Of a DNA stretch of 64,000 nucleotides, positions 1 to 53,758 are shown one piece after another. Under the pieces are notes generated by a model, which worked only from the letters and a program-made list of their open reading frames with translations, searched no databases and was not told the DNA's origin. The position numbers and the translations under genes were made by a program. Where the stretch lies: assembly GCF_035581345.1 (NCBI RefSeq), contig NZ_CP141608.1, positions 2,820,501-2,884,500 of the forward strand, given 5' to 3'. This DNA comes from Pseudomonas sp. JQ170C (GTDB lineage: Bacteria > Pseudomonadota > Gammaproteobacteria > Pseudomonadales > Pseudomonadaceae). Position 1 is the stretch's first letter. Each line of letters begins with the position of its first letter.

Positions 1-983
1 AACCGGTGCTGGACAACACCCGCAAGAACGCCGTCGGTGCGCGCAGCCAGGAGGGCGGCACCGCCGTCGACAACGTGCTGCCGGGCATTCCGTTCCCGAT
101 TCCGCAAACCGGCGCCGAAGCCATGTGGAACTTCCTGCTGCGCTACCAGGGCGTGAGCATGACCGCCAAGTACGACTCCTGGAACGTCGACGCCAGTGGC
201 CGGCCAACCCTGTCTACCACCGGCCAGGCCAACATCAGTTACCCAATCTACGAGGACATGAACAAGCTGATCGGCGCCAAGGACACCTACTACCAGATGA
301 AGCTGAGCTACACCGGGCCTGCCCGCCGTGCCGGCGAAGCGATGATGCTGCGCGATGCCGCCAACCCGCTGGTGCAGCCACGCAGCGCCTGGCAGTACCT
401 GCCAGGGCAGCGCCGGGTCAAGCTGGCACCGAACCTTGCCTACGACACGCCCAACCCGGGTACCTCCGGCTCCGGCACCTACGATGACGTGTTCGTCTTC
501 AACGGCGCGCTGGATCGCTACGACTGGACCCTGGTGGGCAAGCAGGAAATGTACGTGCCGTACAACACCTACCAGCTCACCTACCACACCGACGTCAAGC
601 AACTGACCACGCCCAACCACCTGGCGCCGCAGTTCGTGCGCTGGGAGAAACACCGGGTGTGGGTGGTGGAAGGCAAGCTCAAGGACGGCGCCCGCCACAT
701 CTACCACAAGCGCCGCTTCTACCTGGACGAAGACAGCTGGATCGCTCTGGCATCGGACCAATACGACGCCCGTGATCAACTGTACCGCGGCTCGTTCGCC
801 TTCCTCAGCCAGAGCTACGACAAGCAGACCCCGGATGCCACGCCCTTCATGATCTACGACCTGATCGGCGGCACCTACAACCTCAACGGCGTGGTCGGTG
901 CCTATGGCGGCATCCGCTACATCGAGCCGCTGTCGCGTACCCAGTGGTCGCCCGAGTCGCTGGCCGGTGCCGGCATTCGTTAA
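1..983 (+). CDS. DUF1329 outer-membrane-associated protein (5' partial)
   Basis: The reading frame is open to the left edge of the window, so the N-terminus and signal peptide are missing; about 325 residues remain of a family usually near 450. The sequence is plainly paralogous to the complete DUF1329 protein at 46769-48139: both share QYLPGQRR/YNAGQRR, the RYDW(T/K)LVGK(Q/K)E block, YxLHRVW-like KHRVWVVEG, the RHIYHKRRFYLDED block and a C-terminus ending AGIR. DUF1329 proteins are periplasmic or outer-membrane-associated, often beside DUF1302 barrels and MMPL proteins; their biochemical role is unproven. Here it leads into a YCF48 propeller and an MMPL transporter, which suggests movement of a hydrophobic substrate across the envelope. 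The function is inferred from context only. Confidence 0.88.
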   Translation, partial: PVLDNTRKNAVGARSQEGGTAVDNVLPGIPFPIPQTGAEAMWNFLLRYQGVSMTAKYDSWNVDASGRPTLSTTGQANISYPIYEDMNKLIGAKDTYYQMKLSYTGPARRAGEAMMLRDAANPLVQPRSAWQYLPGQRRVKLAPNLAYDTPNPGTSGSGTYDDVFVFNGALDRYDWTLVGKQEMYVPYNTYQLTYHTDVKQLTTPNHLAPQFVRWEKHRVWVVEGKLKDGARHIYHKRRFYLDEDSWIALASDQYDARDQLYRGSFAFLSQSYDKQTPDATPFMIYDLIGGTYNLNGVVGAYGGIRYIEPLSRTQWSPESLAGAGIR

Positions 984-993
984 GCCCATGAAC

Positions 994-1022
994 GGCCCGG
1001 CGTCGATACCCGACGCCGGGCC
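994..1022 (+). terminator. Intercistronic hairpin between DUF1329 and YCF48 genes
   Basis: A perfect 12-bp stem (GGCCCGGCGTCG with CGACGCCGGGCC) surrounds a 5-nt loop, 11 bases after the DUF1329 stop. No T-run follows, so it may act as an mRNA-stabilising or attenuating hairpin rather than a full terminator. Confidence 0.5.
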
Positions 1023-1050
1023 CCTGGTTGAGCGATCCGGAGGATCGGGT

Positions 1051-2118
1051 ATGTATTGTTTGAAGCGATGGACCACGCTGATGGTGGCGTTGCTGGCCCT
1101 GCACGGCACGGCCCAGGCAGCCACTTATGTAGACGTGCTGGACCTGCCGGCCATGCCCAGTGCCCTGGCCAGCAACAGCGCCTTGCGCGATGTGACCACG
1201 GCCGGGGCACGGCTGGTGGCGGTAGGACCGCGCGGGCACATTCTGTATTCCGATGACCTGGGCAGCCGCTGGCAACAAGCGCGGGTGCCGGTCAGTGCCG
1301 ACCTCAATGCCGTCACGTTCCCGACCCCGGAGCTGGGTTGGGCAGTGGGCAATGACGGGGTGATCCTGCACAGCCGCGATGGCGGCCTGAGCTGGCAAAA
1401 GCAGTTGGACGGACGAGTGCTGGGCGAGCAGGTCGTAGCCTGGTACCGCGCCCAGGCCCAGGCCGCGCCGGCTGACGAACGCTGGACAACCTGGGTGGCG
1501 GAAGGCGAGCGGCTGGTGGCCGAAGGCGCCGACAAGCCGCTGCTGGACGTGTGGTTTCGCGATGCCGACAACGGCTTTGCCGTCGGCGTGTTCAACCTGC
1601 TGCTGCACACCACCGATGGCGGCCAGCACTGGACGCCGTGGCTTGATCGCACCGACAACCCGCAAGCCTTGCACCTGACCAGCCTGAATGAAGTCGACAA
1701 CACGCTGTACATCACCGGCGAGCAGGGCCTGCTGCTCAAGCTCGGCGCCGATGGCCAGCACTTCGAGCGCCTGGTCACTCCTTACGCCGGCACCTACTTT
1801 GGCGCGCTTGGCAAACCGGGCGTGCTGCTGGCCTACGGCCTGCGCGGGCATGTGTACCGCAGCAACGATGGCGGTCAGCAGTGGCAAGCGGTGCCCACCG
1901 GATTGTCCACCAGCATTACCGCCGCCGGCCTGGACCGTGCCGGGCAACTGTGGCTGTCGAGCCAGGCCGGTGACGTACTGGTCAGCCGTGATGACGGCGC
2001 AAGCTTTACGCCGGTGACGCAAACGGCCCGTACCCCGGTCAGCGGGGCGACCTTCGATGCCGCGTCCGACCTGGTACTGGTAGGCGACCGTGGTGTGCGC
2101 ACCCTGGCCCACGAATAA
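1051..2118 (+). CDS. Secreted YCF48/BNR-type beta-propeller protein
   Basis: The product has 355 residues. It starts with a Sec signal peptide (hydrophobic stretch around residues 9-18, probable cleavage after AQA near residue 23). At least five Asp-box repeats (S/T-x-D-x-G-x-x-W/F) are visible: SDDLGSRW, SRDGGLSW, TTDGGQHW, SNDGGQQW and SRDDGASF. This is the pattern of YCF48/photosystem-II-stability-factor-like propellers. The ATG at 1051 is chosen over an upstream in-frame start because GGAGG lies at 1039-1043 and the signal peptide begins there. In Proteobacteria such proteins commonly sit directly before MMPL/RND genes, as here, and are thought to be periplasmic partners of the transporter. 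The partner role is inference. Confidence 0.85.
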   Translation: MYCLKRWTTLMVALLALHGTAQAATYVDVLDLPAMPSALASNSALRDVTTAGARLVAVGPRGHILYSDDLGSRWQQARVPVSADLNAVTFPTPELGWAVGNDGVILHSRDGGLSWQKQLDGRVLGEQVVAWYRAQAQAAPADERWTTWVAEGERLVAEGADKPLLDVWFRDADNGFAVGVFNLLLHTTDGGQHWTPWLDRTDNPQALHLTSLNEVDNTLYITGEQGLLLKLGADGQHFERLVTPYAGTYFGALGKPGVLLAYGLRGHVYRSNDGGQQWQAVPTGLSTSITAAGLDRAGQLWLSSQAGDVLVSRDDGASFTPVTQTARTPVSGATFDAASDLVLVGDRGVRTLAHE

Positions 2119-2147: not shown

Positions 2148-4640
2148 ATGGCCAACATCCAACAAGACACCCTGCCGGTGATCCGCAACCTCAGCGACTT
2201 CGATGCACGCTCCGGCAACCTGCTCGAACGCCTGGTGTTCAACCATCGGCTGCCGTTCGTGGTGTGCATGCTGCTGGTTACCCTGGTGCTGGGCTTCATG
2301 GCCCTGACGCGCCTGGAGTTGCGCCCAAGCTTCGAGAAGATGATTCCCCAGAGTCATCCCTATATTCAGAACTACCTGAACAACCGTGAGTCGCTGCGCG
2401 GCCTGGGCAACTCGCTGCGCATCGTGGTGGAGAACACCCAGGGCGATATTTTCGACCCGGCTTACCTGCAGACCCTGCGCCATATCAACGACGAGCTGTT
2501 CCTCGCCCAGGGCGTGGACCGCGCCTGGATGAAGTCGCTGTGGAGCCCGGCGGTGCGCTGGACCGAAGTCACCGAAGAGGGCTTCCAGGGCGGGCCGGTG
2601 ATGCCCGACAGCTACCAGGGCTCGCCCGAGGATATCCAGCAACTGCGCCAGAACATCGAGCGCGCCAACATTGTCGGCAGCCTGGTGGCCCGCGATTTCA
2701 AGTCGAGCATGCTCATCGTGCCGCTGTTCGACCGCGACTCGGCCACCGGCCGCGGCATCGACTACCACGCGTTTTCGCAAAAGCTTGAACAGCTGCGCAG
2801 CCAGTACGAAGCCATCGGTGCCGAAAACGGCGAGGGCCACTACAAGATCCATGTGATCGGCTTTGCCAAGCTGATGGGCGACCTGATCGACGGGCTGATC
2901 CAGGTCATGCTGTTCTTCGCCCTGGCCGTGGTGACCACCCTGGTGATCATCTACCTCTATACCCGCTGCGTGCGCAGCACCTTGCTGGTGGTGGTGTGCT
3001 CGCTGACCGCCGTGGTGTGGCAGTTGGGCATCGTCGCCTGGCTGGGGTATGCCATTGACCCGTATTCGATCCTGGTGCCGTTCCTGATCTTCGCCATTGG
3101 CGTGTCCCACGCCGCGCAGAAAATGAACGGCATCATGCAGGACATCGGCCGTGGCACCCACCGCCAGATCGCCGCGCGCTACACCTTCCGCCGCCTGTTC
3201 GTGGCCGGTGTCACGGCGCTGCTGGCCGACGCCGTGGGCTTTGCCGTGCTGATGCTGATCGACATCCCGGTGATCCAGGACCTGGCCGTGACCGCCAGCA
3301 TCGGCGTCGCGGTGCTGATCTTTACCTCGCTGCTGCTGATGCCGGTGGCGCTGTCGTACATCGGTGTCGGTCGCAAGGCGGCCGAGCGGGCGCTGCGCAT
3401 CGACTCGCGGGCGGCCGACCATCGCGGCTTCGGCAAGCTCTGGGACCTGCTCGACCGCTTTACCACACGCAAATGGGCCACCGCCGCCGTGGTGATCGCC
3501 GCGCTGATGGGGGCAGGGGGCTTCTGGGTCAGCCTGCAACTGAAGATCGGCGACCTCGACAGCGGCGCCCCCGAGCTGCATGCCGACTCGCGCTACAACC
3601 GCGACAACGCCTACATCACCGGGCACTACGCGCTGTCCAGCGACACCTTCGCGGTGATGATCAAGACCGCCCCCGAAGGCTGCCTGCGCTACCAGACCCT
3701 GGTACTGGCCGACCGCCTGGCCTGGGAGCTGCAACAGTACCCGGGGGTGCAGACCACCCTGTCGCTGACCAACGCGGTGCGCCAGATCACCGCCGGCACC
3801 TACGAGGGCAACCCCAAGCTCAACAGCATCCAGCGCAACCAGGACGTGCTCAACTACGCGGCGCAGCAGGCCTCGGTCAATGCCCCGGAGCTGTTCAACA
3901 ACGATTGCTCGCTGATGCCGGTGATCGCCTACCTCAAGGACCACAAGGCCGACACCCTCAATGAAGTGGTGGCCATTGCCGAGCGCTTCGCCCAGGCCAA
4001 CAGCAGCGACGACCGTCAATTCCTGCTGGCCGCCGGCAGCGCCGGTATCGAGGCCGCCACCAACATCGTGGTGCACGAGGCCAACCGCACCATGCTGTTG
4101 CTGGTGTACCTGGCCGTCACGGTGTTCTGCCTGATCACCTTCCGCAGCTGGCGCGCCACCCTGGTGGCGGTACTGCCACTGATGCTCACCTCGGTGCTGT
4201 GTGAAGCGCTGATGGTGATGATGGGCATCGGCGTGAAAGTCGCCACCTTGCCGGTGATCGCCCTGGGCGTGGGCATTGGCGTGGACTACGCCTTGTACCT
4301 GCTCAGTGTGCAGCTGCATTACCAGCGCAAGGGCATGTCGCTGTCCCAGGCCTATGAAAACGCCGTGGCCTTCACCGGCCGGGTCGTGGGCCTGGTCGGT
4401 ATCACCCTGGCCGCCGGTGTGGTGGGCTGGGCCTGGTCGCCGATCAAGTTCCAGGCCGACATGGGCATCCTGCTGACCTTCATGTTCCTGTGGAACATGC
4501 TCGGCGCGCTGATCCTGATCCCGGCGCTGTCGTATTTCCTCTTGCCCGACCACAAGGCCCGGGCCACTGCCGCAAGCCCCGCACCTGCCAAGGGGCAGCC
4601 TCTAACCACTAAAGCAGTCGAGTGTTCGCAACATGTCTGA
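2148..4640 (+). CDS. MMPL/RND superfamily inner-membrane transporter
   Basis: An 830-residue protein with two repeated halves. A first membrane helix lies near residues 35-53, a periplasmic domain follows, and a helix cluster spans about residues 245-410. The pattern then repeats, with a helix near 443-465, a second periplasmic domain and a helix cluster from about 647 to 810. This is the RND/MMPL layout, and it is shorter than tripartite efflux pumps of about 1,040 residues. Proteins of this branch carry lipids, hopanoids, sterols and other hydrophobic molecules. It is translationally coupled to the next gene (8-base overlap) and follows the YCF48 propeller and DUF1329 genes. A role in uptake or export of the substrate of this cluster is likely; the direction is not evident from sequence. 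Confidence 0.9.
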   Translation: MANIQQDTLPVIRNLSDFDARSGNLLERLVFNHRLPFVVCMLLVTLVLGFMALTRLELRPSFEKMIPQSHPYIQNYLNNRESLRGLGNSLRIVVENTQGDIFDPAYLQTLRHINDELFLAQGVDRAWMKSLWSPAVRWTEVTEEGFQGGPVMPDSYQGSPEDIQQLRQNIERANIVGSLVARDFKSSMLIVPLFDRDSATGRGIDYHAFSQKLEQLRSQYEAIGAENGEGHYKIHVIGFAKLMGDLIDGLIQVMLFFALAVVTTLVIIYLYTRCVRSTLLVVVCSLTAVVWQLGIVAWLGYAIDPYSILVPFLIFAIGVSHAAQKMNGIMQDIGRGTHRQIAARYTFRRLFVAGVTALLADAVGFAVLMLIDIPVIQDLAVTASIGVAVLIFTSLLLMPVALSYIGVGRKAAERALRIDSRAADHRGFGKLWDLLDRFTTRKWATAAVVIAALMGAGGFWVSLQLKIGDLDSGAPELHADSRYNRDNAYITGHYALSSDTFAVMIKTAPEGCLRYQTLVLADRLAWELQQYPGVQTTLSLTNAVRQITAGTYEGNPKLNSIQRNQDVLNYAAQQASVNAPELFNNDCSLMPVIAYLKDHKADTLNEVVAIAERFAQANSSDDRQFLLAAGSAGIEAATNIVVHEANRTMLLLVYLAVTVFCLITFRSWRATLVAVLPLMLTSVLCEALMVMMGIGVKVATLPVIALGVGIGVDYALYLLSVQLHYQRKGMSLSQAYENAVAFTGRVVGLVGITLAAGVVGWAWSPIKFQADMGILLTFMFLWNMLGALILIPALSYFLLPDHKARATAASPAPAKGQPLTTKAVECSQHV

Positions 4641-6411
4641 TTACCGTCCACCTTTGCGCGACATGGAATTTCTGTTCAACGAAGTTTTCGACATCCCGTC
4701 CCAGTGGGCGCAGATGCCGGCCCTGGCCGAGCAGATAGATGCCGACACCGCCCGGGCGGTGCTGGAGCAGGCGGGCAAGGTCATTGCCCAGGTGGTGGCG
4801 CCGCTCAACCGCAGTGGCGATGAGCAGGGCTGCCGCTTCGACGCCGGGCAGGTGACTACCCCCGACGGTTTTGTCCAGGCCTACCGTACCTACGCCGCCG
4901 ATGGCTGGGTGGGTGTGGCCGGCGCGCCGGAATTCGGCGGCATGGGCATGCCCAAGGTGATCGGCGCCCAGGTCGAAGAGATGCTCAACGCCGCGAACCT
5001 GTCGTTTGCCCTGTACCCGATGCTCACTGCGGGCGCCTGCCTGTCGCTGCTCAACCATGCCAGTGAAGCGCTCAAGGCCCGCTACCTGCCGGCCATGTAC
5101 GAAGGGCGCTGGACCGGCTCCATGTGCCTGACCGAGCCACACGCCGGCACCGACCTGGGGCTGATCCGTACCCGCGCCGAACCCCAGGCCGATGGCAGCT
5201 ACCGGGTCAGCGGCACGAAGATCTTCATCACCGGCGGCGAGCAGGACCTGAGCGAGAACATCATTCACCTGGTGCTGGCCAAGCTGCCCGATGCGCCCGC
5301 CGGGGCCAAGGGCATCTCACTGTTCCTGGTGCCCAAGGTGATGGTCGGCGACGACGGCGCGCTGGGCGAGGCCAACGCGGTGAGCTGCGGCTCCATCGAA
5401 CACAAGATGGGCATCAAGGCCTCGGCCACCTGCGTGATGAACTTCGACGGCGCCACCGGCTACCTGGTCGGCGAGCTGAACAAGGGCCTCAACGCCATGT
5501 TCACCATGATGAACTACGAGCGCCTGGGCGTCGGCATCCAGGGCCTGGCCCTGGGCGAACGCTCGTACCAGAACGCCATCGAGTATGCCCGCGAGCGCCT
5601 GCAGAGCCGCGCGCCCACCGGCCCGCAAGCGACCGAGCAGGCGGCCGACCCGATCATCGTGCACCCGGACGTGCGCCGCATGCTGCTGACCATGAAGGCG
5701 CTGAACGAAGGCGGGCGAGCGTTTTCCACCTACGTGGCGCAGCAACTGGACCTGGCCAAGTACAGCGAAGCCGCCGAGGCGCGTCGCCAGGCCGAAGCCC
5801 AGGTGGCGTTGCTGACACCCGTGGCCAAGGCGTTCCTGACCGACATGGGCCTGGAAACCACCGTGCATGGCCAGCAGGTGTTCGGCGGCCACGGCTACAT
5901 TCGCGAATGGGGCCAGGAGCAGTTGATCCGCGACTGCCGCATCACCCAGATCTACGAAGGCACCAACGGCATCCAGGCCCTGGACCTGATGGGGCGCAAG
6001 CTGGTGGCCGATGGCGGCCGAACCTATGCGCTGCTGTCCGAGCAGATCAAGGCTTACGCCGCCGGGCTGCCAGCGTCGCGTGCAGAGTTCAGCGCGCCGC
6101 TGCTGGCCGCCGTGGCCAACCTGGACGAATTGACCGCCTGGGTGCTTGACCGCGCTCAGGGCGAGCCGAGGGAAATCGGCGCGGCGGCCGTCGAGTACCT
6201 GCACGTGCTGGGCTACACCCTGTATGCCTGGTTCTGGGCACAAATGGCCGACGTGGCCCTGGCCAAGCAGGAGCAGGGCGCCTACTACCAGAGCAAGCTG
6301 GGCACCGCGCGCTTCTACTTTGCCCGTCTGTTGCCGCGCATCCACTCCCTGAGCGCCAGCGTCAAGGCCGGCAGCCACAGCCTGTACCTGCTCGACGCCG
6401 AGCAACTGTGA
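4633..6411 (+). CDS. Acyl-CoA dehydrogenase, large DmdC-like subfamily
   Basis: A 592-residue flavoprotein, about 200 residues longer than ordinary ACADs. The N-terminal PLRDMEFLFNEVF block and the C-terminal extension are typical of the long subfamily that includes 3-methylmercaptopropionyl-CoA dehydrogenase (DmdC). The FAD/substrate motif CLTEPHAGTDLGL is near residue 163, and the catalytic glutamate is expected at Glu442 in QIYEGTNGIQ. It oxidises an acyl-CoA to the 2-enoyl-CoA with electrons passing to ETF. It overlaps the MMPL gene by 8 bases and is followed by an acyl-CoA synthetase, so activation and first oxidation are co-expressed with transport. The DmdC substrate should not be assumed; the subfamily acts on many acyl-CoAs. 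Confidence 0.88.
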   Translation: MSDYRPPLRDMEFLFNEVFDIPSQWAQMPALAEQIDADTARAVLEQAGKVIAQVVAPLNRSGDEQGCRFDAGQVTTPDGFVQAYRTYAADGWVGVAGAPEFGGMGMPKVIGAQVEEMLNAANLSFALYPMLTAGACLSLLNHASEALKARYLPAMYEGRWTGSMCLTEPHAGTDLGLIRTRAEPQADGSYRVSGTKIFITGGEQDLSENIIHLVLAKLPDAPAGAKGISLFLVPKVMVGDDGALGEANAVSCGSIEHKMGIKASATCVMNFDGATGYLVGELNKGLNAMFTMMNYERLGVGIQGLALGERSYQNAIEYARERLQSRAPTGPQATEQAADPIIVHPDVRRMLLTMKALNEGGRAFSTYVAQQLDLAKYSEAAEARRQAEAQVALLTPVAKAFLTDMGLETTVHGQQVFGGHGYIREWGQEQLIRDCRITQIYEGTNGIQALDLMGRKLVADGGRTYALLSEQIKAYAAGLPASRAEFSAPLLAAVANLDELTAWVLDRAQGEPREIGAAAVEYLHVLGYTLYAWFWAQMADVALAKQEQGAYYQSKLGTARFYFARLLPRIHSLSASVKAGSHSLYLLDAEQL

Positions 6412-6422
6412 AGGACACGCAC

Positions 6423-8069
6423 ATGATCAACACCCGCGTCATACCGCCAGCCCCCGGGGCCTATAGCTACCCGTTACTGATCAAGCGCCTGCTGCTGTCG
6501 GGCGTGCGCTACCAGCCCGGCCAGGAAATCGTCTACGCCGACAAGCTGCGCTACACCTACACCACCCTGAACGAGCGCATCCAGCGCCTGGCCAATGTCC
6601 TGACCGAGGCCGGGGTCAAGCCCGGCGACACCGTGGCCTTGCTCGACTGGGACAGCCATCGCGCCCTGGAGTGCTTCTTTGCCGTGCCGATGCTGGGCGC
6701 GGTGCTGCACACCGTGAACGTGCGGCTGTCGGCGGAACAGATCCGCTACACCATGAACCACGCCGAAGACCGCCTGGTGCTGGTACATGACGACTTCCTG
6801 CCGCTGATGGAGCAGATCAAGGGCGAGCTGAACACGGTCGAACGCTTTATCCGCTTGAGTGACGGCGGCACCTGCACCGCCGACCTGCCCGTACTGGGCG
6901 AGTACGAGGCGTTGCTGGCCGATGCCCCTGTCGGGTACGAATTCCCTGACTTCGACGAAAACTCACTGGCGACCCTGTTCTACACCACCGGCACCACCGG
7001 CAACCCCAAAGGGGTGTACTTCACCCACCGGCAACTGGTGCTGCACACCCTCAACGAACTGGGCACCTTCGCCGCCTGCGCAGCGGAGCCGTTGCTGCGT
7101 TCGGGCGATGTGTACATGCCGATCACCCCGATGTTCCATGTGCATGCCTGGGGCGTGCCTTACGTCGCCACGGCGTTGGGGATCAAGCAGGTGTACCCCG
7201 GCCGCTACGAGCCTAACCAGCTGGTGCGCCTGTTCCGAGAAGAGCAGGTGACCTTCTCCCACTGCGTGCCGACCCTGCTGCAAATGATGCTCGACTGCGA
7301 GGAAGGCCGGCGCACCGACCTGGTCGGCTGGAAAATGCTCCTGGGCGGCAGCGCCCTGACCCAGGGCCTGGCGGCGCGCGCCAATGCCCGGGGCATCCGG
7401 GTGCACTGTGGCTACGGCATGTCCGAGAGCTGCCCGCTGCTGAGCCTGACCTGCCTGAGCGCGGAAGACCTTGCGCTGTCCATGGAGCAGCAACTGCCCC
7501 TGCGCATCAACGCCGGCGTGCCGGTGCCCCTGGTCGACCTGCGCATCGTCGACGGCCAGGGCAAGGACGTTGCCCATGACGGCGAAAGCCTGGGCGAAAT
7601 CGTCGTACGTGCGCCCTGGCTGACCCAGGGCTACCTCAATGCACCGGAGCAGGGCGCCGAGCTTTGGGCCGGTGGCTGGATGCACACGGGTGACATGGCC
7701 TGCATCAACGATCGTGGCGTGGTGCAGATTCGCGACCGGATCAAGGACGTGATCAAGACCGGTGGCGAATGGATCAGCTCGGTGGAGCTGGAAAGCCTGA
7801 TCAGCCAGCACCGCGATGTCGACGCCGTAGCCGTCGTCGGCATTGCCGACGCGCAATGGGGCGAACAACCCTTGGCGCTGGTGGTGTGCGTGGCCGGAGC
7901 GCGGATGGAGCAACCGGACCTGGCGCGGCACCTGCAGCAGTTCGTCGACAGCGGCCGCCTGAACAAATGGGCGATACCCCGCCAGGTACGTTTTGTGAGC
8001 GAGATACCCAAGACCAGCGTGGGCAAGATCAACAAGAAATTGATCCGCGAACAACTTGGCACCGTGTAG
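6423..8069 (+). CDS. AMP-forming acyl-CoA synthetase
   Basis: A 548-residue member of the ANL adenylating superfamily. Visible core motifs are the P-loop-like FYTTGTTGNPKGVYFTHRQ, GYGMSES, the GGWMHTGD block, RDRIKDVIKTGGEWIS, and the C-terminal lysine region TSVGKINKKL that closes the active site. It activates a free carboxylic acid with ATP and CoA. The ATG at 6423 is preferred because AAGGA at 6411-6415 is well spaced. A GTG at 6408 overlapping the upstream stop would add only five residues. It is the last gene of the first operon. Length and motifs fit medium/long-chain or aryl-alkanoic acid ligases; the substrate cannot be read from the sequence. Confidence 0.9.
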   Translation: MINTRVIPPAPGAYSYPLLIKRLLLSGVRYQPGQEIVYADKLRYTYTTLNERIQRLANVLTEAGVKPGDTVALLDWDSHRALECFFAVPMLGAVLHTVNVRLSAEQIRYTMNHAEDRLVLVHDDFLPLMEQIKGELNTVERFIRLSDGGTCTADLPVLGEYEALLADAPVGYEFPDFDENSLATLFYTTGTTGNPKGVYFTHRQLVLHTLNELGTFAACAAEPLLRSGDVYMPITPMFHVHAWGVPYVATALGIKQVYPGRYEPNQLVRLFREEQVTFSHCVPTLLQMMLDCEEGRRTDLVGWKMLLGGSALTQGLAARANARGIRVHCGYGMSESCPLLSLTCLSAEDLALSMEQQLPLRINAGVPVPLVDLRIVDGQGKDVAHDGESLGEIVVRAPWLTQGYLNAPEQGAELWAGGWMHTGDMACINDRGVVQIRDRIKDVIKTGGEWISSVELESLISQHRDVDAVAVVGIADAQWGEQPLALVVCVAGARMEQPDLARHLQQFVDSGRLNKWAIPRQVRFVSEIPKTSVGKINKKLIREQLGTV

Positions 8070-33595: not shown

Positions 33596-33596
33596 T

Positions 33597-44922: not shown

Positions 44923-46743
44923 ATGAACCTGACGAGAATGCGTGGAGCCCGCGCTCCGCACCTGTTGGCCGTCGCCGTTGCCCTTGCCGTGCAGTCCCAG
45001 GCCAATGCCAAGGACTTCAGCATTGGCGAAATCGAAGGCAGTTTCGATTCATCGCTGTCCATCGGCGCCAGCTGGGCCGTGCGCGGCCCGGACCCGGATT
45101 TCATCTCCAACTTCAACTCGCAAGGGACCCGCGGCAACGCGTCCTCGCGTACCAACGACGACAACCGCCTGAACTTCAAGAAGGGCGAGACCTTCTCGAA
45201 GATCTTCAAGGGCGTGCACGACCTGGAACTCAAATACGGACAGAGCGGCGTGTTTGTGCGCGGCAAGTACTGGTACGACTTCGAGCTCAAGGATGAAAGC
45301 CGGCTGTTCTACGACATCGACGACAGCGGCCGTGACCGTGCCGCCAAGTCGTCGGGGGCGATGTTTCTCGACAGTTTCGTCTACCACAACTACAACCTGG
45401 GCTCGCTGCCGGGCAACGTGCGGGTCGGCAAGCAGGTGGTGAGTTGGGGCGAGAGCACCTTCATCGGCAACTCGATCAACAGCATCAACCCCATCGACGT
45501 CGCCGCCTTGCGCCGCCCGGGCGCCGAGGTCAAGGAAGGCCTGATCCCGGTCAACATGTTCTACCTGTCCCAGGGCCTGACCGACAGCCTGACCGCCGAG
45601 ATGTTCTACCAGATCGAATGGGAGAGCTCGGTGATCGACAACTGCGGCACCTTCTTCGGCAACGACGTCACCCCCCAGGGCTGCAACGATCGTGTCGTAC
45701 TGGCCGGCCTAGACCTGCCGCCGGGCGTGGCCAACAACACCGGCACCCCGGGGGTGACCGACGATGCCTACGTTCCGCGCACCAAGACCCGCGACGCCCG
45801 CGACAGCGGCCAGTACGGCCTGGCGCTGCGCTGGTACGTACCGGAGCTGAACGAAACCGAGTTCGGCTTCTATGCCATGAACTACCACAGCCGCAACCCG
45901 AGCCTGGACTTCACCCGCGCCACCAACGCCAGCAACGCGGTCGCCGCCATCCGCACCGCCAGCTACAACGTGGTCTACCCCGAAGACGTGCGCCTGTACG
46001 GCGTGAGCTTCGCCACCAACGTCGACGGCACCTCGCTGGGTGGTGAGATCAGCTACCGGCCGAACATGCCGCTGAACCTCAACGGCGCCGACCTCAACCT
46101 GGCGGCGCTGGGCAATGCGGCCTCGCCGCTGTTCCAGAGCGGCAATTCGGTGAACGTTGCCGGTGCCGACATCGACGGCTACAAGCGCATGCCGGTGCTG
46201 CAGGCGCAGGTCAGCGCCACGCACTTCTTCGACCAGGTGATGGGCAGCGACCGCCTGACCCTGGTGGGCGAGGTGGGCTACAACCACATCAACGGCCTGG
46301 GCTCGAGCGACGGCAGCGACCTGCGCTTTGGCCGCAACACCGTGTTTGGCGCCGGTGAACTGGTGAACCAGGCAGTGTGCGTGGGCGCCAACCAGCCCGT
46401 GCCGGGCCAGCCGGGCGTGACGGCGCCGAGCAACCCACAGCAGGAATGCAACAGCCACGGCTTCTACACCAGCAGCTCCTGGGGCTACCGCCTGCGTGGC
46501 AAGTTCGACTACCCCAACGTGATCGCCGGCATCAACCTGTCACCCAACATCGCCTGGTCCCATGACGTGGACGGTGTCGGCCCCAACTTCGAGGAAGGCA
46601 CCAAGGCCGTGAGCCTGGGGCTGGATGCCGAGTACCTGAACACTTACACCGCCAGCCTGAGTTACACCGACTACTTCGGCGGCAAGTGGAACACCAACAC
46701 TGATCGCGACTACGTCGCCCTCAGCTTCGGCGTGAACTTCTGA
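44923..46743 (+). CDS. DUF1302 outer-membrane beta-barrel-type protein
   Basis: A 606-residue protein with a Sec signal peptide (cleavage likely after NANA at residue 29). The mature part begins with the DUF1302 hallmark IEGSFDSSLSIGASWAV. It has many alternating hydrophobic segments ending in aromatic residues (FGVNF at the C-terminus), as in outer-membrane barrels. DUF1302 proteins nearly always sit beside DUF1329 genes in clusters for hydrophobic compounds and are thought to be porin- or FadL-like entry channels; this is not proven. CGGAG near 44912 supports the ATG. The DUF1329 gene follows after 25 bases. Confidence 0.9.
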   Translation: MNLTRMRGARAPHLLAVAVALAVQSQANAKDFSIGEIEGSFDSSLSIGASWAVRGPDPDFISNFNSQGTRGNASSRTNDDNRLNFKKGETFSKIFKGVHDLELKYGQSGVFVRGKYWYDFELKDESRLFYDIDDSGRDRAAKSSGAMFLDSFVYHNYNLGSLPGNVRVGKQVVSWGESTFIGNSINSINPIDVAALRRPGAEVKEGLIPVNMFYLSQGLTDSLTAEMFYQIEWESSVIDNCGTFFGNDVTPQGCNDRVVLAGLDLPPGVANNTGTPGVTDDAYVPRTKTRDARDSGQYGLALRWYVPELNETEFGFYAMNYHSRNPSLDFTRATNASNAVAAIRTASYNVVYPEDVRLYGVSFATNVDGTSLGGEISYRPNMPLNLNGADLNLAALGNAASPLFQSGNSVNVAGADIDGYKRMPVLQAQVSATHFFDQVMGSDRLTLVGEVGYNHINGLGSSDGSDLRFGRNTVFGAGELVNQAVCVGANQPVPGQPGVTAPSNPQQECNSHGFYTSSSWGYRLRGKFDYPNVIAGINLSPNIAWSHDVDGVGPNFEEGTKAVSLGLDAEYLNTYTASLSYTDYFGGKWNTNTDRDYVALSFGVNF

Positions 46744-46768: not shown

Positions 46769-48139
46769 ATGAAACCTGCACGTCTTCTGCTCACCGCCTG
46801 CACCCTGTCGCTGTCCCTGGTGGCCGCGAGCGTAATGGCCGCCGTTTCCCCGGAAGAAGCGGCCAAGCTTGGCACCAGCCTCACCCCGGTAGGCGCGGAA
46901 AAAGCCGGCAACGCCGATGGCAGCATCCCGGCCTGGACCGGCGGCCTCAAGGCCGACGCCGCCCCGGTGCAAAACGGCTTCATGGGTAACCCCTACGCCA
47001 GTGAAAAGCCGCTGTTCGTCATCACCGCCGCCACCGCCGAGCAGTACAAGGACAAGCTGACCCCGGGCCAGCAAGCCTTGTTCAAACGCTACCCCGACAC
47101 CTACAAGATGCCGGTGTACCAGACCCAGCGCAGCGCGGTGCTGCCGCAAACGGCCTATGACGCGGCGAAAAAAAGCGCGGTGACCACCGAAGCGATCAAC
47201 GACGGCTATTCGCTGAAAAACTTTGAACAGATCCATTACTTTGCCTTCCCGATCCCCAAGAACGGCCTGGAAGTGGTGTGGAACCACCTGACCCGCTACC
47301 GCGGCCATAGCTACATCAACTCCCAGGTCCAGGCCACGCCGCAGGTCAACGGCAGCTTCACCCCGGTGCAGATCGAAATGGCCAGTGGGTTCCCCTGGCT
47401 GATGGCCGATGCCAAGTCCAAGGACATCAACAACATCCTGTTCTTCGTCAAGCAGACCGTGACCGCACCGGCGCGCATGGCCGGTAACGTCACCCTGATC
47501 CACGAAACCCTCGACCAGGTTGCCGAGCCGCGCATGGCCTGGGCCTACAACGCCGGGCAGCGCCGGGTTCGCCGTGCACCGCAAGTGGCCTACGACGGCC
47601 CGGGTACCGCAGCCGACGGCCTGCGCACCGCCGACAACTCTGACATGTACAACGGCGCGCCGGACCGTTACGACTGGAAACTGGTGGGCAAGAAGGAAAT
47701 CTACATTCCCTACAACAGCTACAAGCTGCAGTCGCCGTCGCTCAAGTATGACGAGATCATCAAGCCAGGCCACATCAACCAGGACCTGACCCGCTACGAG
47801 CTGCACCGGGTGTGGGAAGTGGTGGGCACGCTCAAGTCCGGCTCGCGGCACATCTATGCCAAGCGCCACATGTTCTTTGACGAAGACACCTGGACCGCTG
47901 TCGAAGTTGACCACTACGACGGCCGCGGCCAACTGTGGCGGGTCAGTGAAGGGCACAGCTACACCGACTACGTACAGAAGCTGACCGCCTTTGCTGCCGT
48001 GGGTACCTATGACCTGATTGCCGGGCGCTACGTGGTGTCGAACCTGGGCAACGAGAACAAGGCCGGCATCAACTATGCCTACCAGCCGAGCGTCAACGAT
48101 TTCACCCCGGCAGCGCTGCGCAACGCCGGTATCCGCTAG
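46769..48139 (+). CDS. DUF1329 outer-membrane-associated protein (complete copy)
   Basis: A 456-residue protein with an N-terminal export signal (hydrophobic residues 6-24). A LTAC sequence at residues 8-11 resembles a lipobox, but the hydrophobic run continues past it, so ordinary Sec cleavage near VMA is more likely. The body matches the partial DUF1329 protein at the left end of the window. AGAGAGGAAA gives a good ribosome binding site. It lies directly after the DUF1302 gene, the usual pairing. The pair probably forms an outer-envelope unit for a hydrophobic substrate, here without its own MMPL gene. The molecular function is unknown. Confidence 0.9.
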   Translation: MKPARLLLTACTLSLSLVAASVMAAVSPEEAAKLGTSLTPVGAEKAGNADGSIPAWTGGLKADAAPVQNGFMGNPYASEKPLFVITAATAEQYKDKLTPGQQALFKRYPDTYKMPVYQTQRSAVLPQTAYDAAKKSAVTTEAINDGYSLKNFEQIHYFAFPIPKNGLEVVWNHLTRYRGHSYINSQVQATPQVNGSFTPVQIEMASGFPWLMADAKSKDINNILFFVKQTVTAPARMAGNVTLIHETLDQVAEPRMAWAYNAGQRRVRRAPQVAYDGPGTAADGLRTADNSDMYNGAPDRYDWKLVGKKEIYIPYNSYKLQSPSLKYDEIIKPGHINQDLTRYELHRVWEVVGTLKSGSRHIYAKRHMFFDEDTWTAVEVDHYDGRGQLWRVSEGHSYTDYVQKLTAFAAVGTYDLIAGRYVVSNLGNENKAGINYAYQPSVNDFTPAALRNAGIR

Positions 48140-48179: not shown

Positions 48180-48222
48180 CATCGTTATTCCCTTTGAGAC
48201 TGTCTGATACTGGAGATCTGTG

Positions 48223-49413
48223 ATGTCGCAAAAACCTTATGTCGTGGGCGTGGGGATGATCCCGTTCGTCAAGCCGGGCACCAGCGGTACCTACATCGAG
48301 ATGGGTGCGCAGGCCATTCGCCTGGCGCTGCAAGACGCCGGCCTGGACTTCGGCCTGGTGCAACAGGCCTATGCCGGTTATGTGTACGGTGACTCCACCA
48401 GCGGCCAGGCGGCGCTGTATGAAGTGGGCATGAGCGGCATTGCGGTGGTCAACGTCAACAACAACTGCTCCACCGGCTCCAGCGCCCTGTTCCTGGCGCG
48501 CCAGGCGGTGGAGAGCGGGGCGGTGGACTGCGCCCTGGCCTTCGGTTTCGAGCAGATGCAGCCCGGTGCGCTGAAATCGGTGTGGACTGATCGCCCGGGT
48601 GCCACTTCGCACAAGACCGGGCCGGTGATCGAGGAACTGACCGCCGATGTGGGCGATATGCCCAGTGCCTTGCGCATGTTCGGCGGTGCCGGGCGTGAGC
48701 ATATGCACACATACGGCACGCAGATGAGCACCTTCGCGGCCATTCGCGCCAAGGCCAGCCGCCATGCGTCCAACAACCCGCTGGCCTTGTTCCGCAAGGT
48801 CGTCACCACCGAAGACGTGATGAACGACCAGGTGATCTGGCCGGGCGTCATGACCCGTCTGATGGCCTGCCCACCGACGTGCGGCGCGGCGGCGGCGATC
48901 ATCTGCTCCGAAGCCTTTGCCAAGAAGCATGGCCTGAACACCGATGTGGTGATCCTGGCCCAGGCTTTGACCACCGATACACCGATTTGCTTTGAGAGCA
49001 AGTCAATGATCGAAGTGGTCGGTTTCAACATGGCGCAGCGGGCGGCCCAGGCGGTCTACGAGAAGGCCGGTGTGGATCCGCTGGACATCCGTGTGGTGGA
49101 ACTGCACGACTGCTTCGCCCACAACGAACTGCTGACCTACGAATCGCTGGGGCTGTGTCCGGTGGGTGGGGCCGAGCGCTTTGTGCTCGATGGTGACAAC
49201 AGCTATGGCGGGCAAGTGGTGACCAACCCGTCGGGTGGTTTGTTGTCGAAGGGGCATCCGCTGGGGGCTACGGGGCTTGCGCAATGTTATGAGCTGACGC
49301 ATCAGCTGCGCGGCACTGCTGACAAACGTCAGGTGGAAGGTACCAGCCTTGCACTGCAGCACAACCTGGGTCTGGGTGGTGCGTGTGTGGTGACGTTGTA
49401 CGGACGGGGCTGA
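48223..49413 (+). CDS. SCP-x-type thiolase, third copy
   Basis: A 396-residue thiolase paralogous to those at 25364 and 39009. The nucleophile is Cys82 in NVNNNCSTGSSALFLAR, with ELHDCFAHNELLTYE, GHPLGATG and GGACVVTLYG further on. One conserved Cys seen in the other copies (residue 60, GDTTCGQ/GDSTCGQ) is Ser here (GDSTSGQ). The ATG at 48223 follows TGGAGA; a GTG one codon upstream is also in frame. It stands alone after the DUF1302/DUF1329 pair and is followed by a strong terminator. Three copies suggest different chain-length or branch specificities for successive cycles. Confidence 0.91.
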   Translation: MSQKPYVVGVGMIPFVKPGTSGTYIEMGAQAIRLALQDAGLDFGLVQQAYAGYVYGDSTSGQAALYEVGMSGIAVVNVNNNCSTGSSALFLARQAVESGAVDCALAFGFEQMQPGALKSVWTDRPGATSHKTGPVIEELTADVGDMPSALRMFGGAGREHMHTYGTQMSTFAAIRAKASRHASNNPLALFRKVVTTEDVMNDQVIWPGVMTRLMACPPTCGAAAAIICSEAFAKKHGLNTDVVILAQALTTDTPICFESKSMIEVVGFNMAQRAAQAVYEKAGVDPLDIRVVELHDCFAHNELLTYESLGLCPVGGAERFVLDGDNSYGGQVVTNPSGGLLSKGHPLGATGLAQCYELTHQLRGTADKRQVEGTSLALQHNLGLGGACVVTLYGRG

Positions 49414-50761: not shown

Positions 50762-52483
50762 TTACTGGCTTTTGGCAATCGGTTCGACTTTCTGCATACG
50801 GCTGGTATCCATCAACACCAGGCCAAAGGCCATGCCATACATCAGGCGCCCCTGGGCATCGACCTTGATCGGCGCATACATGCCGTTGAACACCGGATCG
50901 CTGCCGGTGGCGATTTCGAGGACAGTCTTGCCCGTGTCCAGGTCCATGCCGATGTGATAACCCTCGCCCTGGCGCGCGGTGTACACGCCGTTGATCACAG
51001 CCATGCGGCTGCCACCGCTGATCATCGGCACCACCGAGACCGAACCGACATCAGTACGGGTCCACAGGGTGTTCCACTGGTCCTTGGCGCTGTCCCACTT
51101 GAGCATCGCCACGCCCTTGGCCGCCGGACGGGTCATGCCGTTGAGCATGGTGACGTAATAGCCCGACTTGGCCAGTGCCGGTTTGTCTTGCGCCGGGATG
51201 TTGTTGACCACAAAGGCATGGCCGTCATACACCGCCACCGATTGTTCCGACTGCACGGTCGGCACCGCATCACCCAGGTCAACCTGGCGCTGGTCGGCAA
51301 CCCGCGGCGACAGGGTGCCCGGCTTCTGCTTCCAGCCCGCCGGGATCTGGTCGCGCCACATGGCCACCAGGTTCATTTTTTTGGAACCGTCGGTGAACAC
51401 CACCAGCTTGTCTTCGTCCGGGCCATAGCCCATCAGGGTCGGGGTGGAGCCGGTACCGTCGCCGATTTTGACCGCAGCGAAACGCACGCCACGTTCATAC
51501 GGTGCTTTCCAGGCGCCGCTGGCCTCGTCGGCGTGGAGCTTGCCGTGCTTGTCGACCACCAGGCGGTACATGTTCTGGTTGGAGGCGACATACACCGCAC
51601 CGCCATTCACTTCAGGGCCGGTGGCGAAGGAGTTGAGGAACACCTCGTCTGCGCCTTCGATGCGGTAGCTGTCGACCAGTGCCAGGGTGGTACGGTCCAG
51701 GGTGGCCACGGTGCCCCCCATGGTGTTGACCACCAGGTAGCCGTTCAGGGTCATGCCCATGCCGAAGGTGGTGTCCACCGGGATACCCACGCTGCGCTGG
51801 GTTTTCTGGTTATCGAACAGCGCGTCGGGCAGTTGCACTTCGTGGCTCAGCTTCATGCCCGAGGCCGGGTCTTTGGGGTCGTTCTGGTCGATGCGGAACA
51901 CCCGGCGGGCACTGGCGCCAATGAACGCGTTGTCGCGGGTCAGCAGCGAGTAGATGGCGCCGCCCAGCAACTGGTCGGTAGTGGCCGTCAGCATGCGGTT
52001 GGGTTGCGCCTGCATGTAGTCGAGCAGGCCTTTCTCATCCTTGGCGTCGAGGAATTTGTGCGCCTGGGCGGCCTGCTGCAATCGCTGCTCGGGGGTAACG
52101 GCGCTGAAGTTGGGCAGTTTGACTGGCAGGTCGACGCGGGCGATTTCCTTGAAGTTGAAGTCGTCCTCGATCTTCAGCTTGCGCAGGGAAAACCCGGCCC
52201 AGTACCAGTAGATATCCGTGCCCCCGACCTTGTCGGTGTACTGCATCAGGCTGCCCGATTCGTTGGGCACCACCCGGTAGGCATCCGGGGTCATCTTGTA
52301 CGACCCGCGTGCCACGCTGATGCTGGTGCTGTCCGAGGCGCCATCGTTCCAGTGGGTCTGGTTGTTGTACGACTGGGCCAGGTACGGGTTGGGCGGTGCG
52401 ACCTGGGTTTGCGCCGTGGCCGCAGCCGGTACGGCGAGGCAGCAGGTAGCCCACAGGGCCCAGTGGGGAGGTAACTCGAACAT
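50762..52483 (-). CDS. Secreted beta-propeller-like protein of unknown function
   Basis: A 573-residue exported protein. It starts with a signal peptide (MFELPPHWALWATCCLAVPA, cleavage near ATA, residue 24). The body has repeated strand-rich blocks typical of PQQ- or WD-like propellers, for example GYLVVNTMGGTVATLD, GAVYVASNQNMYRLVV, HAFVVNNIPA and GEGYHIGMDLDTGKTVLEI. I do not see an established enzyme signature. AAGGAAGG upstream supports the start. It lies near the DUF1302/DUF1329 pair and divergent from a racemase, so it may be a periplasmic binding or oxidoreductase component of the same system. The family is not recognised with certainty. Confidence 0.75.
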   Translation of the reverse strand: MFELPPHWALWATCCLAVPAAATAQTQVAPPNPYLAQSYNNQTHWNDGASDSTSISVARGSYKMTPDAYRVVPNESGSLMQYTDKVGGTDIYWYWAGFSLRKLKIEDDFNFKEIARVDLPVKLPNFSAVTPEQRLQQAAQAHKFLDAKDEKGLLDYMQAQPNRMLTATTDQLLGGAIYSLLTRDNAFIGASARRVFRIDQNDPKDPASGMKLSHEVQLPDALFDNQKTQRSVGIPVDTTFGMGMTLNGYLVVNTMGGTVATLDRTTLALVDSYRIEGADEVFLNSFATGPEVNGGAVYVASNQNMYRLVVDKHGKLHADEASGAWKAPYERGVRFAAVKIGDGTGSTPTLMGYGPDEDKLVVFTDGSKKMNLVAMWRDQIPAGWKQKPGTLSPRVADQRQVDLGDAVPTVQSEQSVAVYDGHAFVVNNIPAQDKPALAKSGYYVTMLNGMTRPAAKGVAMLKWDSAKDQWNTLWTRTDVGSVSVVPMISGGSRMAVINGVYTARQGEGYHIGMDLDTGKTVLEIATGSDPVFNGMYAPIKVDAQGRLMYGMAFGLVLMDTSRMQKVEPIAKSQ

Positions 52484-52642
52484 ACGCTCTTTCCTTCCTT
52501 TTGTTGTTATTGCCAGCGGTGGCGGGCCCAGAGTAGTCCGCTGCCCCGCCAGCCATAGCCACCCGTGGCGGGGGGCAGGTTTTCAGCGCGCTCATCTGCT
52601 AGCGTGAAGCCACAACAACAAGGTCAATCAGGAGGAGCACAC
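52484..52642. promoter_or_regulatory. Divergent control region with GCCACCCGTGGC dyad
   Basis: The 12-mer GCCACCCGTGGC (52558-52569) is the exact reverse complement of the dyad at 24266-24277. A near copy GCCAGCGGTGGC lies at 52512-52523. The sites are about 75-85 bp from both divergent start codons, a fitting place for an activator. AGGAGGAG near 52630 is the racemase ribosome binding site. Confidence 0.5.
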
Positions 52643-53758
52643 ATGCTGTCAGGCATCAAAGTTGTCGAGATCTGCGGTATCGGCCCGGGGCCGTTCTGCG
52701 CCATGCACCTGGCGGACCTGGGTGCTGATGTGATTGCGGTGGAGCGGGGCGCATCGACCTCGATCACCGGCGAGGCCAATGCCGCCAGCAACCCGCTCAA
52801 CCGAGGCAAGCGCTCGATGGTGGCCGACCTCAAGACCGCCGAAGGCCGTGAGCAGGTGCTCAAGTTGATCGAAAGAGCCGACGTGCTGATCGAGGGCATG
52901 CGCCCCGGTGTGATGGAGCGCCTGGGCCTGGGCCCGGAGCAGTGCCAGGCGCGCAACCCGGCGCTGGTATACGGGCGCATGACCGGCTGGGGCCAACACG
53001 GGCCGCTGGCCAACGCTGCCGGCCACGACAATAACTACATCGCCTTGTCGGGCGCGCTGTACCACAGCGGTACGGCCGGGGAGGCGCCGTCGTCGCCCAT
53101 CACCCTGATCGGCGATATCGGCGGTGGCGCGCTGTACCTGGCCATCGGTGTGCTGGCCGGGGTCCTCAAGGCGCGCCAGACCGGGCAGGGCAGTGTGGTA
53201 GATGCCGCCATCGTCGATGGCTCGGCGCACATGATGCAACTGATGATGTCGCTGGGCAGCCGCGGCCTGCTCGATGAGCAACGTGGCAAGAGCGTCCACG
53301 ATGGCTCGCATTTCTACGCCACCTACCGCTGCGCCGATGACCGCTACGTCGCTGTGGGCTCGATGGAGCCGCAGTTCTACGCGCTGCTGCTGAACAAACT
53401 CGGCCTGCAGGATGACCCGCGTTTCGCCCGCCAATGGGATGCCAAGCAGTGGCCGGTCATGCGCGAAGCCTTTGCCGAACTGTTCGCCAGCCAGCCGCGC
53501 CAGCACTGGTGCGACCTGCTCGAAGGCACCGACGCCTGCTTTGCCCCGGTGCTCAGCCCCCGTGAAGCGGCCCGGCACCCGCACATGGTCGAGCGCGACG
53601 TCTACTTCGAGCGCGACGGCCTGCTGCAGGCGCACCCGGCCCCGCGCTTTGACGGGCAGGTGGTTACCCCAGGGCCGATTCCCACCCGGGGTGCGCATAC
53701 TGATGAGGTATTGAACGCACTCCAGAGCGGCAACCTGGCCAGGCTCTGGGCGCGCTGA
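52643..53758 (+). CDS. Alpha-methylacyl-CoA racemase (CaiB/BaiF superfamily), second copy
   Basis: A 371-residue CaiB-family protein with the racemase signature at the N-terminus (VVEICGIGPGPFCAMHLADL). The catalytic triad positions map to His128 in GHDNNYIALSG, Asp158 in LIGDIGGG and Glu242 in VGSMEPQFY, matching the Mycobacterium tuberculosis enzyme pattern. It should epimerise a 2-methylacyl-CoA at C2. The ATG at 52643 has a strong AGGAGGAG site. It is a paralogue of the racemase at 29813-30967, not a close duplicate. It is divergent from the secreted propeller gene and shares a control region with it. Confidence 0.88.
   Translation: MLSGIKVVEICGIGPGPFCAMHLADLGADVIAVERGASTSITGEANAASNPLNRGKRSMVADLKTAEGREQVLKLIERADVLIEGMRPGVMERLGLGPEQCQARNPALVYGRMTGWGQHGPLANAAGHDNNYIALSGALYHSGTAGEAPSSPITLIGDIGGGALYLAIGVLAGVLKARQTGQGSVVDAAIVDGSAHMMQLMMSLGSRGLLDEQRGKSVHDGSHFYATYRCADDRYVAVGSMEPQFYALLLNKLGLQDDPRFARQWDAKQWPVMREAFAELFASQPRQHWCDLLEGTDACFAPVLSPREAARHPHMVERDVYFERDGLLQAHPAPRFDGQVVTPGPIPTRGAHTDEVLNALQSGNLARLWAR

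Follow-up and report, generated by a model that had tools for sequence, protein, structure and literature searches.

The window analysed here is the 64,000-nucleotide stretch at bases 2,820,501-2,884,500 of the single-contig 5.94 Mb genome of Pseudomonas sp. JQ170C, and according to our analysis it holds, as separate genes, the predicted reaction sequence of alpha-methylacyl-CoA racemase (AMACR), multifunctional enzyme MFE-2 and thiolase SCPx. A route for alpha-methyl-branched (2-methyl) acyl-CoA thioesters, as the first-pass annotation had claimed, is well supported by two putative racemases, three putative SCP2-thiolases, a short-chain dehydrogenase/reductase (SDR) resembling (3R)-hydroxyacyl-CoA dehydrogenase and a split hydratase-2. 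We propose that the cluster probably serves to take up a hydrophobic compound and to shorten its alpha-methyl-branched terminal side chain, the likeliest substrate being the C25-methyl side chain of an end-oxygenated steroid. Codon-position G+C guided the choice of open reading frames (ORFs), and their names come from Pfam and NCBIfam profile searches; proteins were compared by bit score with sequences of the PDB, and catalytic residues and motifs were read from the alignments.

Racemases, thiolases and a split MFE-2-like set

Two CaiB-type proteins, AMACR1 and AMACR2 (Table 1), reach 395 and 345 bits against MCR of Mycobacterium tuberculosis (1x74), compared with 123 and 124 bits against the best non-racemase CoA-transferase. 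The MCR positions His126, Asp156 and Glu241 are conserved in both, and in these alignments it is at 156 and 241 that the PDB variants 8rp4 and 8rp5 deviate from the wild type. By these comparisons both are identified as true alpha-methylacyl-CoA racemases of the MCR type, an enzyme which in M. tuberculosis is reported to act on side-chain thioesters, epimerising the 25R form (PMC12682127). A third CaiB protein is not a racemase, its nearest relatives being enzymes of the formyl-CoA-transferase type.

The three SCP-x proteins THIO1, THIO2 and THIO3 score 400, 421 and 415 bits against the type-1 SCP2-thiolase 6hsj, exceed the cut-off of NF006102, and all possess the nucleophilic Cys in NVNN-[AN]-C together with HDCF, GHPLG and QHNLG. 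These motifs set them apart from the steroid side-chain aldolases, which passages of two papers describe as lacking the nucleophilic Cys (PMC8399759, PMC12329534). A reading of the genes as such aldolases (Sal/Ltp2, with YDCY or YDHF in place of HDCF) was accordingly rejected, and no DUF35/OB_ChsH2_C partner of aldolases was matched among the Pfam-searched window proteins. Judged by score and motif, all three are true type-1 SCP2-thiolases.

The PDB entry nearest to SDR2 is 2et6, named (3R)-hydroxyacyl-CoA dehydrogenase and a part of yeast MFE-2 (226 bits, the next entry 153). The hydratase-2 motif GDHNPIH occurs in MaoC3 and neither in MaoC1 nor in MaoC2; HadB and an (R)-hydratase are among the top PDB matches of MaoC3, Rv0504c and HadA among those of MaoC2. 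The roles of MFE-2 and the meaning of its motifs are established, and by sequence SDR2, MaoC2 and MaoC3 resemble an unfused peroxisomal MFE-2 with its dehydrogenase and double hot-dog hydratase-2 parts. Because these parts sit on separate ORFs, the set is predicted to be MFE-2-like in working, yet it is not an MFE-2 fusion.

What genes are present, their synteny and co-occurrence, the catalytic motifs and the ring genes are observations; the substrate, the direction of transport and the order of steps are inferred. The envelope module of DUF1302, DUF1329, BNR and MMPL proteins would carry the compound across the envelope; the alcohol dehydrogenase (ADH) and the aldehyde dehydrogenase (ALDH) would turn the terminal alcohol into an acid, to be activated by an acyl-CoA ligase. 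Either racemase may then interconvert the 2R and 2S forms of the thioester, the accepted epimer would be desaturated by acyl-CoA dehydrogenases (ACADs), the MaoC2/MaoC3 pair would yield the (3R)-hydroxyacyl-CoA, and after its oxidation by an SDR an SCP2-thiolase would free propionyl-CoA.

Ring genes of the host and distribution in the genus

The first-pass annotation had held ring-degradation genes to be absent, which is right for the window, where Pfam gave no ring enzymes among the cluster proteins, and wrong for the genome, in which KstD and relatives of HsaA, HsaC, HsaF, HsaG, FadD3, IpdAB, Sal and Ltp2 lie elsewhere. FadD3 reaches 702 bits (cut-off 657), and HsaF and HsaG are also above their cut-offs, although such enzymes are used in aromatic pathways as well. 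KstD scores 742 bits against the 3-oxosteroid 1-dehydrogenase 7p18. Scanning 2.20-3.45 Mb for its motif was negative because the gene starts before that stretch, and a family search recovered it. A CoA-transferase pair is read as IpdAB by Pfam class only, with no NCBIfam match; a Rieske protein is a candidate KshA by motif only, likewise with no NCBIfam match, and an IpdE2-like ACAD of the ring region has 139 bits (cut-off 450). We read the set of KstD, HsaA, HsaC, FadD3 and IpdAB-like proteins as a putative steroid 9,10-seco pathway.

A search for P450 (PF00067), the family of the CYP125/CYP142 type that activates the cholesterol side chain, gave no match at E <= 0.001 in the host genome, while it was positive in 7 of 14 control genomes. 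Part of an earlier study reports that the proteobacterial steroid degraders tested by Bergstrand et al. left cholesterol unmetabolised, which was tied to missing P450 orthologues (PMC4810484). Since the host has a ring pathway of the 9,10-seco type and no detectable P450, a steroid side chain appears the likeliest substrate and, because no P450 was found, one probably already oxygenated on arrival. The first-pass annotation had left a choice between an acyclic substrate and handling of a side chain alone; our data favour the latter by the host ring pathway and by the distribution of HsaC described below.

The host is rich in paralogues. Its SCP-x C-terminal thiolase family has 17 matches, 16 above cut-off: ten with the full SCP2-thiolase motif set (those of the window included), two further, at 3.25 and 3.89 Mb, that have the Cys but represent different SCP-x types, and one each with YDCY, YDHF, YDAF and no motifs, the Sal-type (YDCY) and Ltp2-type (YDHF) proteins lying at 2.21-2.23 Mb. 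There are 16 DUF1302 genes and ten CoA_transf_3 genes, four of the latter matching AMACR1 at E <= 1e-80; the His and Glu motifs occur in all four and the Asp motif pattern in three. Paralogous modules lie at 2.617-2.646, 3.088-3.107, 3.120-3.136, 3.172-3.179 and 3.387-3.409 Mb.

Relatives' loci were sought by scanning public species genomes with the DUF2889 protein as a marker. Among the 16 loci found, 11 belong to named Pseudomonas (P. vranovensis at the top with 92% identity), and the weakest five (35-39% identity) to alpha- or betaproteobacterial metagenome-assembled genomes. Eleven loci were annotated (L011-L021, with L022-L026 left out), and eight of these, in as many genomes, hold the orthologous cluster: P. 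putida 31753, P. vranovensis, P. jinjuensis, P. azerbaijanoccidentalis SWRI74, PS862, 17522, ASAD and IT-P366. This comparison across Pseudomonas genomes, which the first-pass annotation had proposed, found the cluster to be largely syntenic in P. putida 31753 (L103, L012 and L104), where the order from the AraC gene to the ADP-forming acyl-CoA synthetase is kept at 80-100% identity, except for ACAD_c at 68% and for pimC, pimD and SDR1, which do not occur at the expected places, and where additional SDR, ETF-like and crotonase genes occur. Because the order is kept there, the gene set is more than a chance assembly.

P. putida 31753 and P. jinjuensis have the block of AMACR1 with ACAD_d, MaoC1 and LysR, and the P. 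vranovensis contig stops before the AMACR1 position. AMACR2 occurs in P. putida 31753, PS862 and SWRI74; in P. jinjuensis the 20 kb read downstream did not show it. ACAD_c has 284 residues in the window, 276-326 in P. vranovensis and P. putida 31753, and 367-448 in PS862, SWRI74, 17522, ASAD and IT-P366, so that by these lengths the short form appears to be common to the window and the first two species.

Co-occurrence with ring cleavage was counted in 249 drawn Pseudomonas genomes, the host included. The DUF2889 marker occurs in 10, a racemase like AMACR1 (E <= 1e-80) in 19 and an HsaC-like protein (E <= 1e-40) in 45, with at least 48% identity in 40 and at least 55% in 35. After dropping the five of 45 genomes whose best match was below 40% identity, HsaC is present in 13 of 19 racemase-positive versus 27 of 230 racemase-negative genomes (Fisher p = 1e-7), and in 8 of 10 genomes with DUF2889 versus 32 of 239 others (p = 8e-6); with all 45 the counts are 13/19 versus 32/230 (p = 5e-7) and 8/10 versus 37/239 (p = 2e-5). 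All eight named genomes with the orthologous cluster possess an HsaC homologue (55-98% identity). The contrast in SWRI74, where THIO2 is 92% identical but HsaC only 55%, argues for a functional association rather than co-inheritance of one block.

A number of observations speak against a steroid substrate. The ring-degradation-type genes, at about 2.20-2.28 Mb, are 0.54-0.62 Mb away from the window; HsaA (365 bits) and HsaC (275 bits, cut-off 450 each) and KstD (588 bits to NF005882, cut-off 788) all remain below the NCBIfam equivalog cut-offs; and the p-values ignore the relatedness of the genomes. Six of the 19 racemase-positive genomes have no HsaC (G081, G089, G131, G173, G214, G228), and in P. 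schmalbachii the locus is a paralogous module with a ring-cleavage relative of only 35%, which suggests that related modules can serve other substrates. Moreover, P. putida 31753 does not have pimC and pimD at the expected places, and the AMACR1 block is absent in five of the eight relatives (PS862, SWRI74, 17522, ASAD, IT-P366).

Alternative explanations for the cluster

It is conceivable, although somewhat unlikely in our view, that the window contains several independent operons for different acyl-CoA substrates which are merely adjacent. The presence inside of three LAL, one TetR and one LysR regulator, with IclR and AraC at the edges, would agree with this, as would the two ligases, the repeat arrays between operons and the uneven retention of parts, the left envelope block being missing from PS862 and SWRI74 in the stretches read and the AMACR1 block from five relatives. 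However, the order LAL2-THIO1-DUF2889-LAL3-4HBT-ACAD_e is kept in L012-L017 and L020, optional genes aside, with THIO2 following wherever the sequence was read, and from the distribution of the two racemases at least one is retained in all four clusters for which both sides were read.

The same chemistry could also serve acyclic isoprenoid or multimethyl-branched alcohols and acids (pristanic-type acids, 2-alkyl-branched alcohols), with the ring pathway a coincidence. In principle the enzymes could take many 2-methylacyl-CoAs, an alcohol fits ADH and ALDH, and the racemase-positive genomes with no HsaC agree with such a use. We consider this unlikely and have demoted an exclusively acyclic substrate because of the host ring genes, KstD among them, and of HsaC in all eight cluster genomes. 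The acyclic terpene pathway of the Atu/Liu type is marked by geranyl-CoA or methylcrotonyl-CoA carboxylase; no such carboxylase was matched among the Pfam-searched window proteins, the remaining genome not having been searched for one.

Six of the eight named clusters (PS862, SWRI74, 17522, ASAD, IT-P366 and P. jinjuensis) have a type I sulfatase between ADH/pimCD and LAL2, according to Pfam in three clusters (one a partial ORF) and to coordinates of 85% identical matches in the other three. There is none at that place in P. vranovensis or P. putida 31753. A sulfatase as part of the window was rejected, as the window has none and the host's 85% homologue at 3.68 Mb has no cluster neighbours. 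A second, sister module of P. putida 31753 holds a metallo-beta-lactamase-type alkyl sulfatase (L018:15348-17123) and an amine-oxidase-like flavoprotein (L018:12081-13559). Branched alkyl sulfates, either synthetic 2-alkyl-branched surfactants or natural sulfate esters, from which the sulfatase of relatives would free a branched primary alcohol for ADH and ALDH, are nevertheless a very unlikely substrate, since both kinds of sulfatase speak for them while the window and two relatives do without, all 10 genomes tested have sulfatases (4-10 matches each) that may merely scavenge sulfate, and the association with the ring pathway would be unexplained unless the sulfate is a steroid.

Gene inventory, known counterparts and significance

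Every enzyme class that the first-pass annotation had listed was recovered by Pfam at 1-53758: two AMP ligases, one crotonase, three MaoC-type hot-dog proteins, two SDRs, three SCP-x thiolases, three CoA_transf_3 proteins and nine ACADs, a tenth following at 55008 (Table 1). Placement of the catalytic glutamate in the window ACADs was ambiguous and not used. Envelope proteins occupy 3-4640 (DUF1329/BNR/MMPL) and 44881-48139 (DUF1302/DUF1329).

The limits given earlier, positions 1 to 53758, have to be revised, as genes for an AraC regulator, a serine hydrolase and DUF1302a in the upstream sequence L009 put the start of the cluster about 3 kb ahead of the window, and in P. putida 31753 the conserved order extends past 53758 through IclR, ACAD and ADP-forming acyl-CoA synthetase genes. 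Beside the AraC gene at this left edge lies a tyrosine recombinase (L009:9818-10756; XerC 123 bits, cut-off 335), a possible mark of a mobile island.

Table 1. Features of the cluster and its flanks (window positions, or positions in the upstream sequence L009 where so marked).
Feature	Position	Strand	Basis
DUF1302 porin partner of DUF1329, directly outside window	L009:13632-15587		Pfam
DUF1329 periplasmic LolA-like protein, envelope module a (gene starts at L009:15625)	3..983	+	Pfam
YCF48/BNR beta-propeller protein (start overlaps preceding ORF, provisional)	898..2118	+	Pfam
MMPL/RND inner-membrane transporter	2148..4640	+	Pfam
Long ACAD, 592 aa	4633..6411	+	Pfam
Acyl-CoA ligase 1	6408..8069	+	Pfam; NF004837 above cut-off
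ACAD_a, ACAD-like partner subunit	8294..9415	-	Pfam, C-terminal domain only
ACAD_b, paired with ACAD_a	9412..10665	-	Pfam; pimC-like, below cut-off
Enoyl-CoA hydratase (crotonase)	10694..11479	+	Pfam; top NCBIfam match EchA19, below cut-off
TetR regulator	11491..12129	+	Pfam
LAL regulator 1 (AAA-TPR-LuxR, MalT-like)	12139..14811	-	Pfam
ALDH (start codon provisional)	14836..16377	+	Pfam
Zn-dependent ADH	16391..17509	+	Pfam; adh_III and NDMA-ADH families below cut-offs
ACAD, PimC-like large subunit	17592..18788	+	Pfam; pimC 480 bits, cut-off 624
ACAD, PimD-like small subunit	18799..19941	+	Pfam; pimD 359 bits, cut-off 653
MFS transporter	19889..21457	+	Pfam
LAL regulator 2 (LAL2)	21502..24183	-	Pfam
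ACAD_c, short; N-terminal and partial middle domains only	24459..25313	+	Pfam
SCP2-thiolase 1 (THIO1)	25310..26551	+	Pfam; 6hsj; NNAC, HDCF, GHPLG kept
SDR1, putative hydroxyacyl-CoA dehydrogenase by likeness to SDR2	26591..27421	+	Pfam
DUF2889 protein, distribution-search marker	27503..28072	+	Pfam
ACAD_d	28097..29281	+	Pfam
MaoC1, FAS1-DH/MaoC-like hot-dog, no hydratase-2 motif	29285..29773	+	Pfam, motif
Alpha-methylacyl-CoA racemase 1 (AMACR1)	29813..30967	-	1x74; His/Asp/Glu kept
LysR regulator	31084..31983	+	Pfam
Family III CoA-transferase, formyl-CoA/succinyl-CoA type	32294..33499	-	Pfam, PDB match
LAL regulator 3 (LAL3)	33727..36477	+	Pfam
4HBT thioesterase	36478..36966	-	Pfam
ACAD_e	37006..38262	-	Pfam
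REP-like tandem array	38304-38830		
SCP2-thiolase 2 (THIO2)	38883..40193	+	Pfam; 6hsj
MaoC2, MFE-2-like N-terminal hot-dog, HadA-like, no catalytic hydratase-2 motif	40227..40670	+	Pfam, PDB, motif
MaoC3, (R)-specific hydratase with GDHNPIH	40642..41109	+	Pfam, PDB, motif
SDR2, (3R)-hydroxyacyl-CoA-dehydrogenase-like	about 41141..41974	+	Pfam; PDB match
ACAD_f	41949..43184	+	Pfam
Acyl-CoA ligase 2	43196..44806	+	Pfam; NF004837 above cut-off
DUF1302 outer-membrane barrel	44881..46743	+	Pfam
DUF1329 periplasmic protein	46769..48139	+	Pfam
SCP2-thiolase 3 (THIO3)	48220..49413	+	Pfam; 6hsj
REP-like tandem array	49856-50721		
Protein of no known family with signal-like N-terminus; conserved among Pseudomonas and further proteobacteria	50762..52483	-	homologues
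Alpha-methylacyl-CoA racemase 2 (AMACR2)	52565..53758	+	1x74; His/Asp/Glu kept
REP-like tandem array	53764-54046		
IclR regulator, adjoining operon	54057..54896	-	Pfam; order kept in P. putida 31753
ACAD, adjoining operon	55008..56210	+	Pfam; P. putida 31753 order
ADP-forming acyl-CoA synthetase, adjoining operon	56194..58425	+	Pfam, NCBIfam; P. putida 31753 order
MFS transporter, adjoining operon	58422..59843	+	Pfam
REP-like tandem array	60529-61052		

The protein at 50762-52483, which adjoins AMACR2, gave no family match in Pfam and NCBIfam searches; of the scored candidates, 548 are homologous to it at E <= 0.001, the named ones being listed as hypothetical, and among the best 120 the named ones come mostly from Pseudomonas, Cupriavidus, Variovorax and Rubrivivax. 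Tandem arrays resembling repetitive extragenic palindromic (REP) sequences, rich in GGAGCGGGCTTGCCC-type units and with shortest periods of 107-179 bases, lie between the operons of the cluster. Just after THIO3 there is a perfect TGTTGG hexamer repeat of 6.8 copies (49476-49516), and a similar Leu-Val repeat ORF (G000:C1:3179511-3179846) follows a DUF1302/DUF1329 pair of a paralogous module at 3.18 Mb. Downstream of a CS1-type pilus gene in locus L010, two ORFs separated by 1.7 kb (2756-3283 and 4435-4962, minus strand) are identical in their first 40 residues; the first has no Pfam match, and their common start probably reflects a duplication.

With the animal peroxisomal AMACR/MFE-2/SCPx system the window shares the racemase, the (3R)-hydroxyacyl-CoA-dehydrogenase-like SDR, the double hot-dog hydratase-2 and the type-1 SCP2-thiolase, motifs included; unlike it, with its fused MFE-2 and oxidases, the window has separate genes and dehydrogenases, no SCP2 lipid-carrier domain was found on these proteins, and ADH/ALDH and the outer-membrane module are additional. 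The cholesterol side-chain pathway of M. tuberculosis employs MCR, P450s, heteromeric ACADs and MaoC hydratases. The likeness to that pathway lies in the MCR-type racemase, the adjacent ACAD gene pairs and a ring pathway in the genome, whereas the host has no P450 match for starting side-chain oxidation and the window adds type-1 SCP2-thiolases and the DUF1302/DUF1329/MMPL envelope module. The host's Sal-type and Ltp2-type proteins recall the proteobacterial bile-acid side-chain pathway (Sal/Shy/Ltp2; P. stutzeri Chol1, C. testosteroni), but that pathway, in the passages cited above, has Cys-less aldolases, and the window has predicted true thiolases and racemases.

Parts of two publications deal with comparable envelope modules, tying AmeABCD-type DUF1302, DUF1329 and RND/MMPL proteins of Castellaniella to monoterpene metabolism (PMC6394551), and PP_0765/0766/2018/2019 of P. 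putida KT2440, which are DUF1302, DUF1329, RND/MMPL and a further periplasmic protein, to growth on Tween 20 (PMC10866462). The window with L009 likewise holds all four kinds of protein in one gene run; unlike those modules, its set is embedded in a predicted 2-methylacyl-CoA pathway, in a host with many DUF1302 genes. No described Pseudomonas system of this kind was recognised in a literature search limited to open-licence papers and to the terms used.

The in-cluster sulfatase of six relatives hints at sulfated alcohols. We may even suggest, as a distinctly unlikely version, that sulfated C27 bile alcohols or C27 bile acids, as excreted by fish and amphibians, would be the substrates of a pathway made up of the cluster and its paralogues, in which a sulfatase would free the side-chain alcohol, ADH/ALDH and a ligase would activate it, racemase, split MFE-2 and SCP2-thiolase would cut off propionyl-CoA, and Sal/Ltp2 and the ring pathway would finish the molecule. 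If true, this would constitute a P450-independent route for sterol side chains in an aerobic Pseudomonas. A Pseudomonas in which no P450 was detected but which has ten SCP2-thiolases, four racemase-like proteins and paralogous split-MFE-2 modules suggests that use of pre-oxygenated sterol-like side chains may still be possible for such bacteria, and for steroid chemistry the cluster is a source of racemases, thiolases and hydratases.

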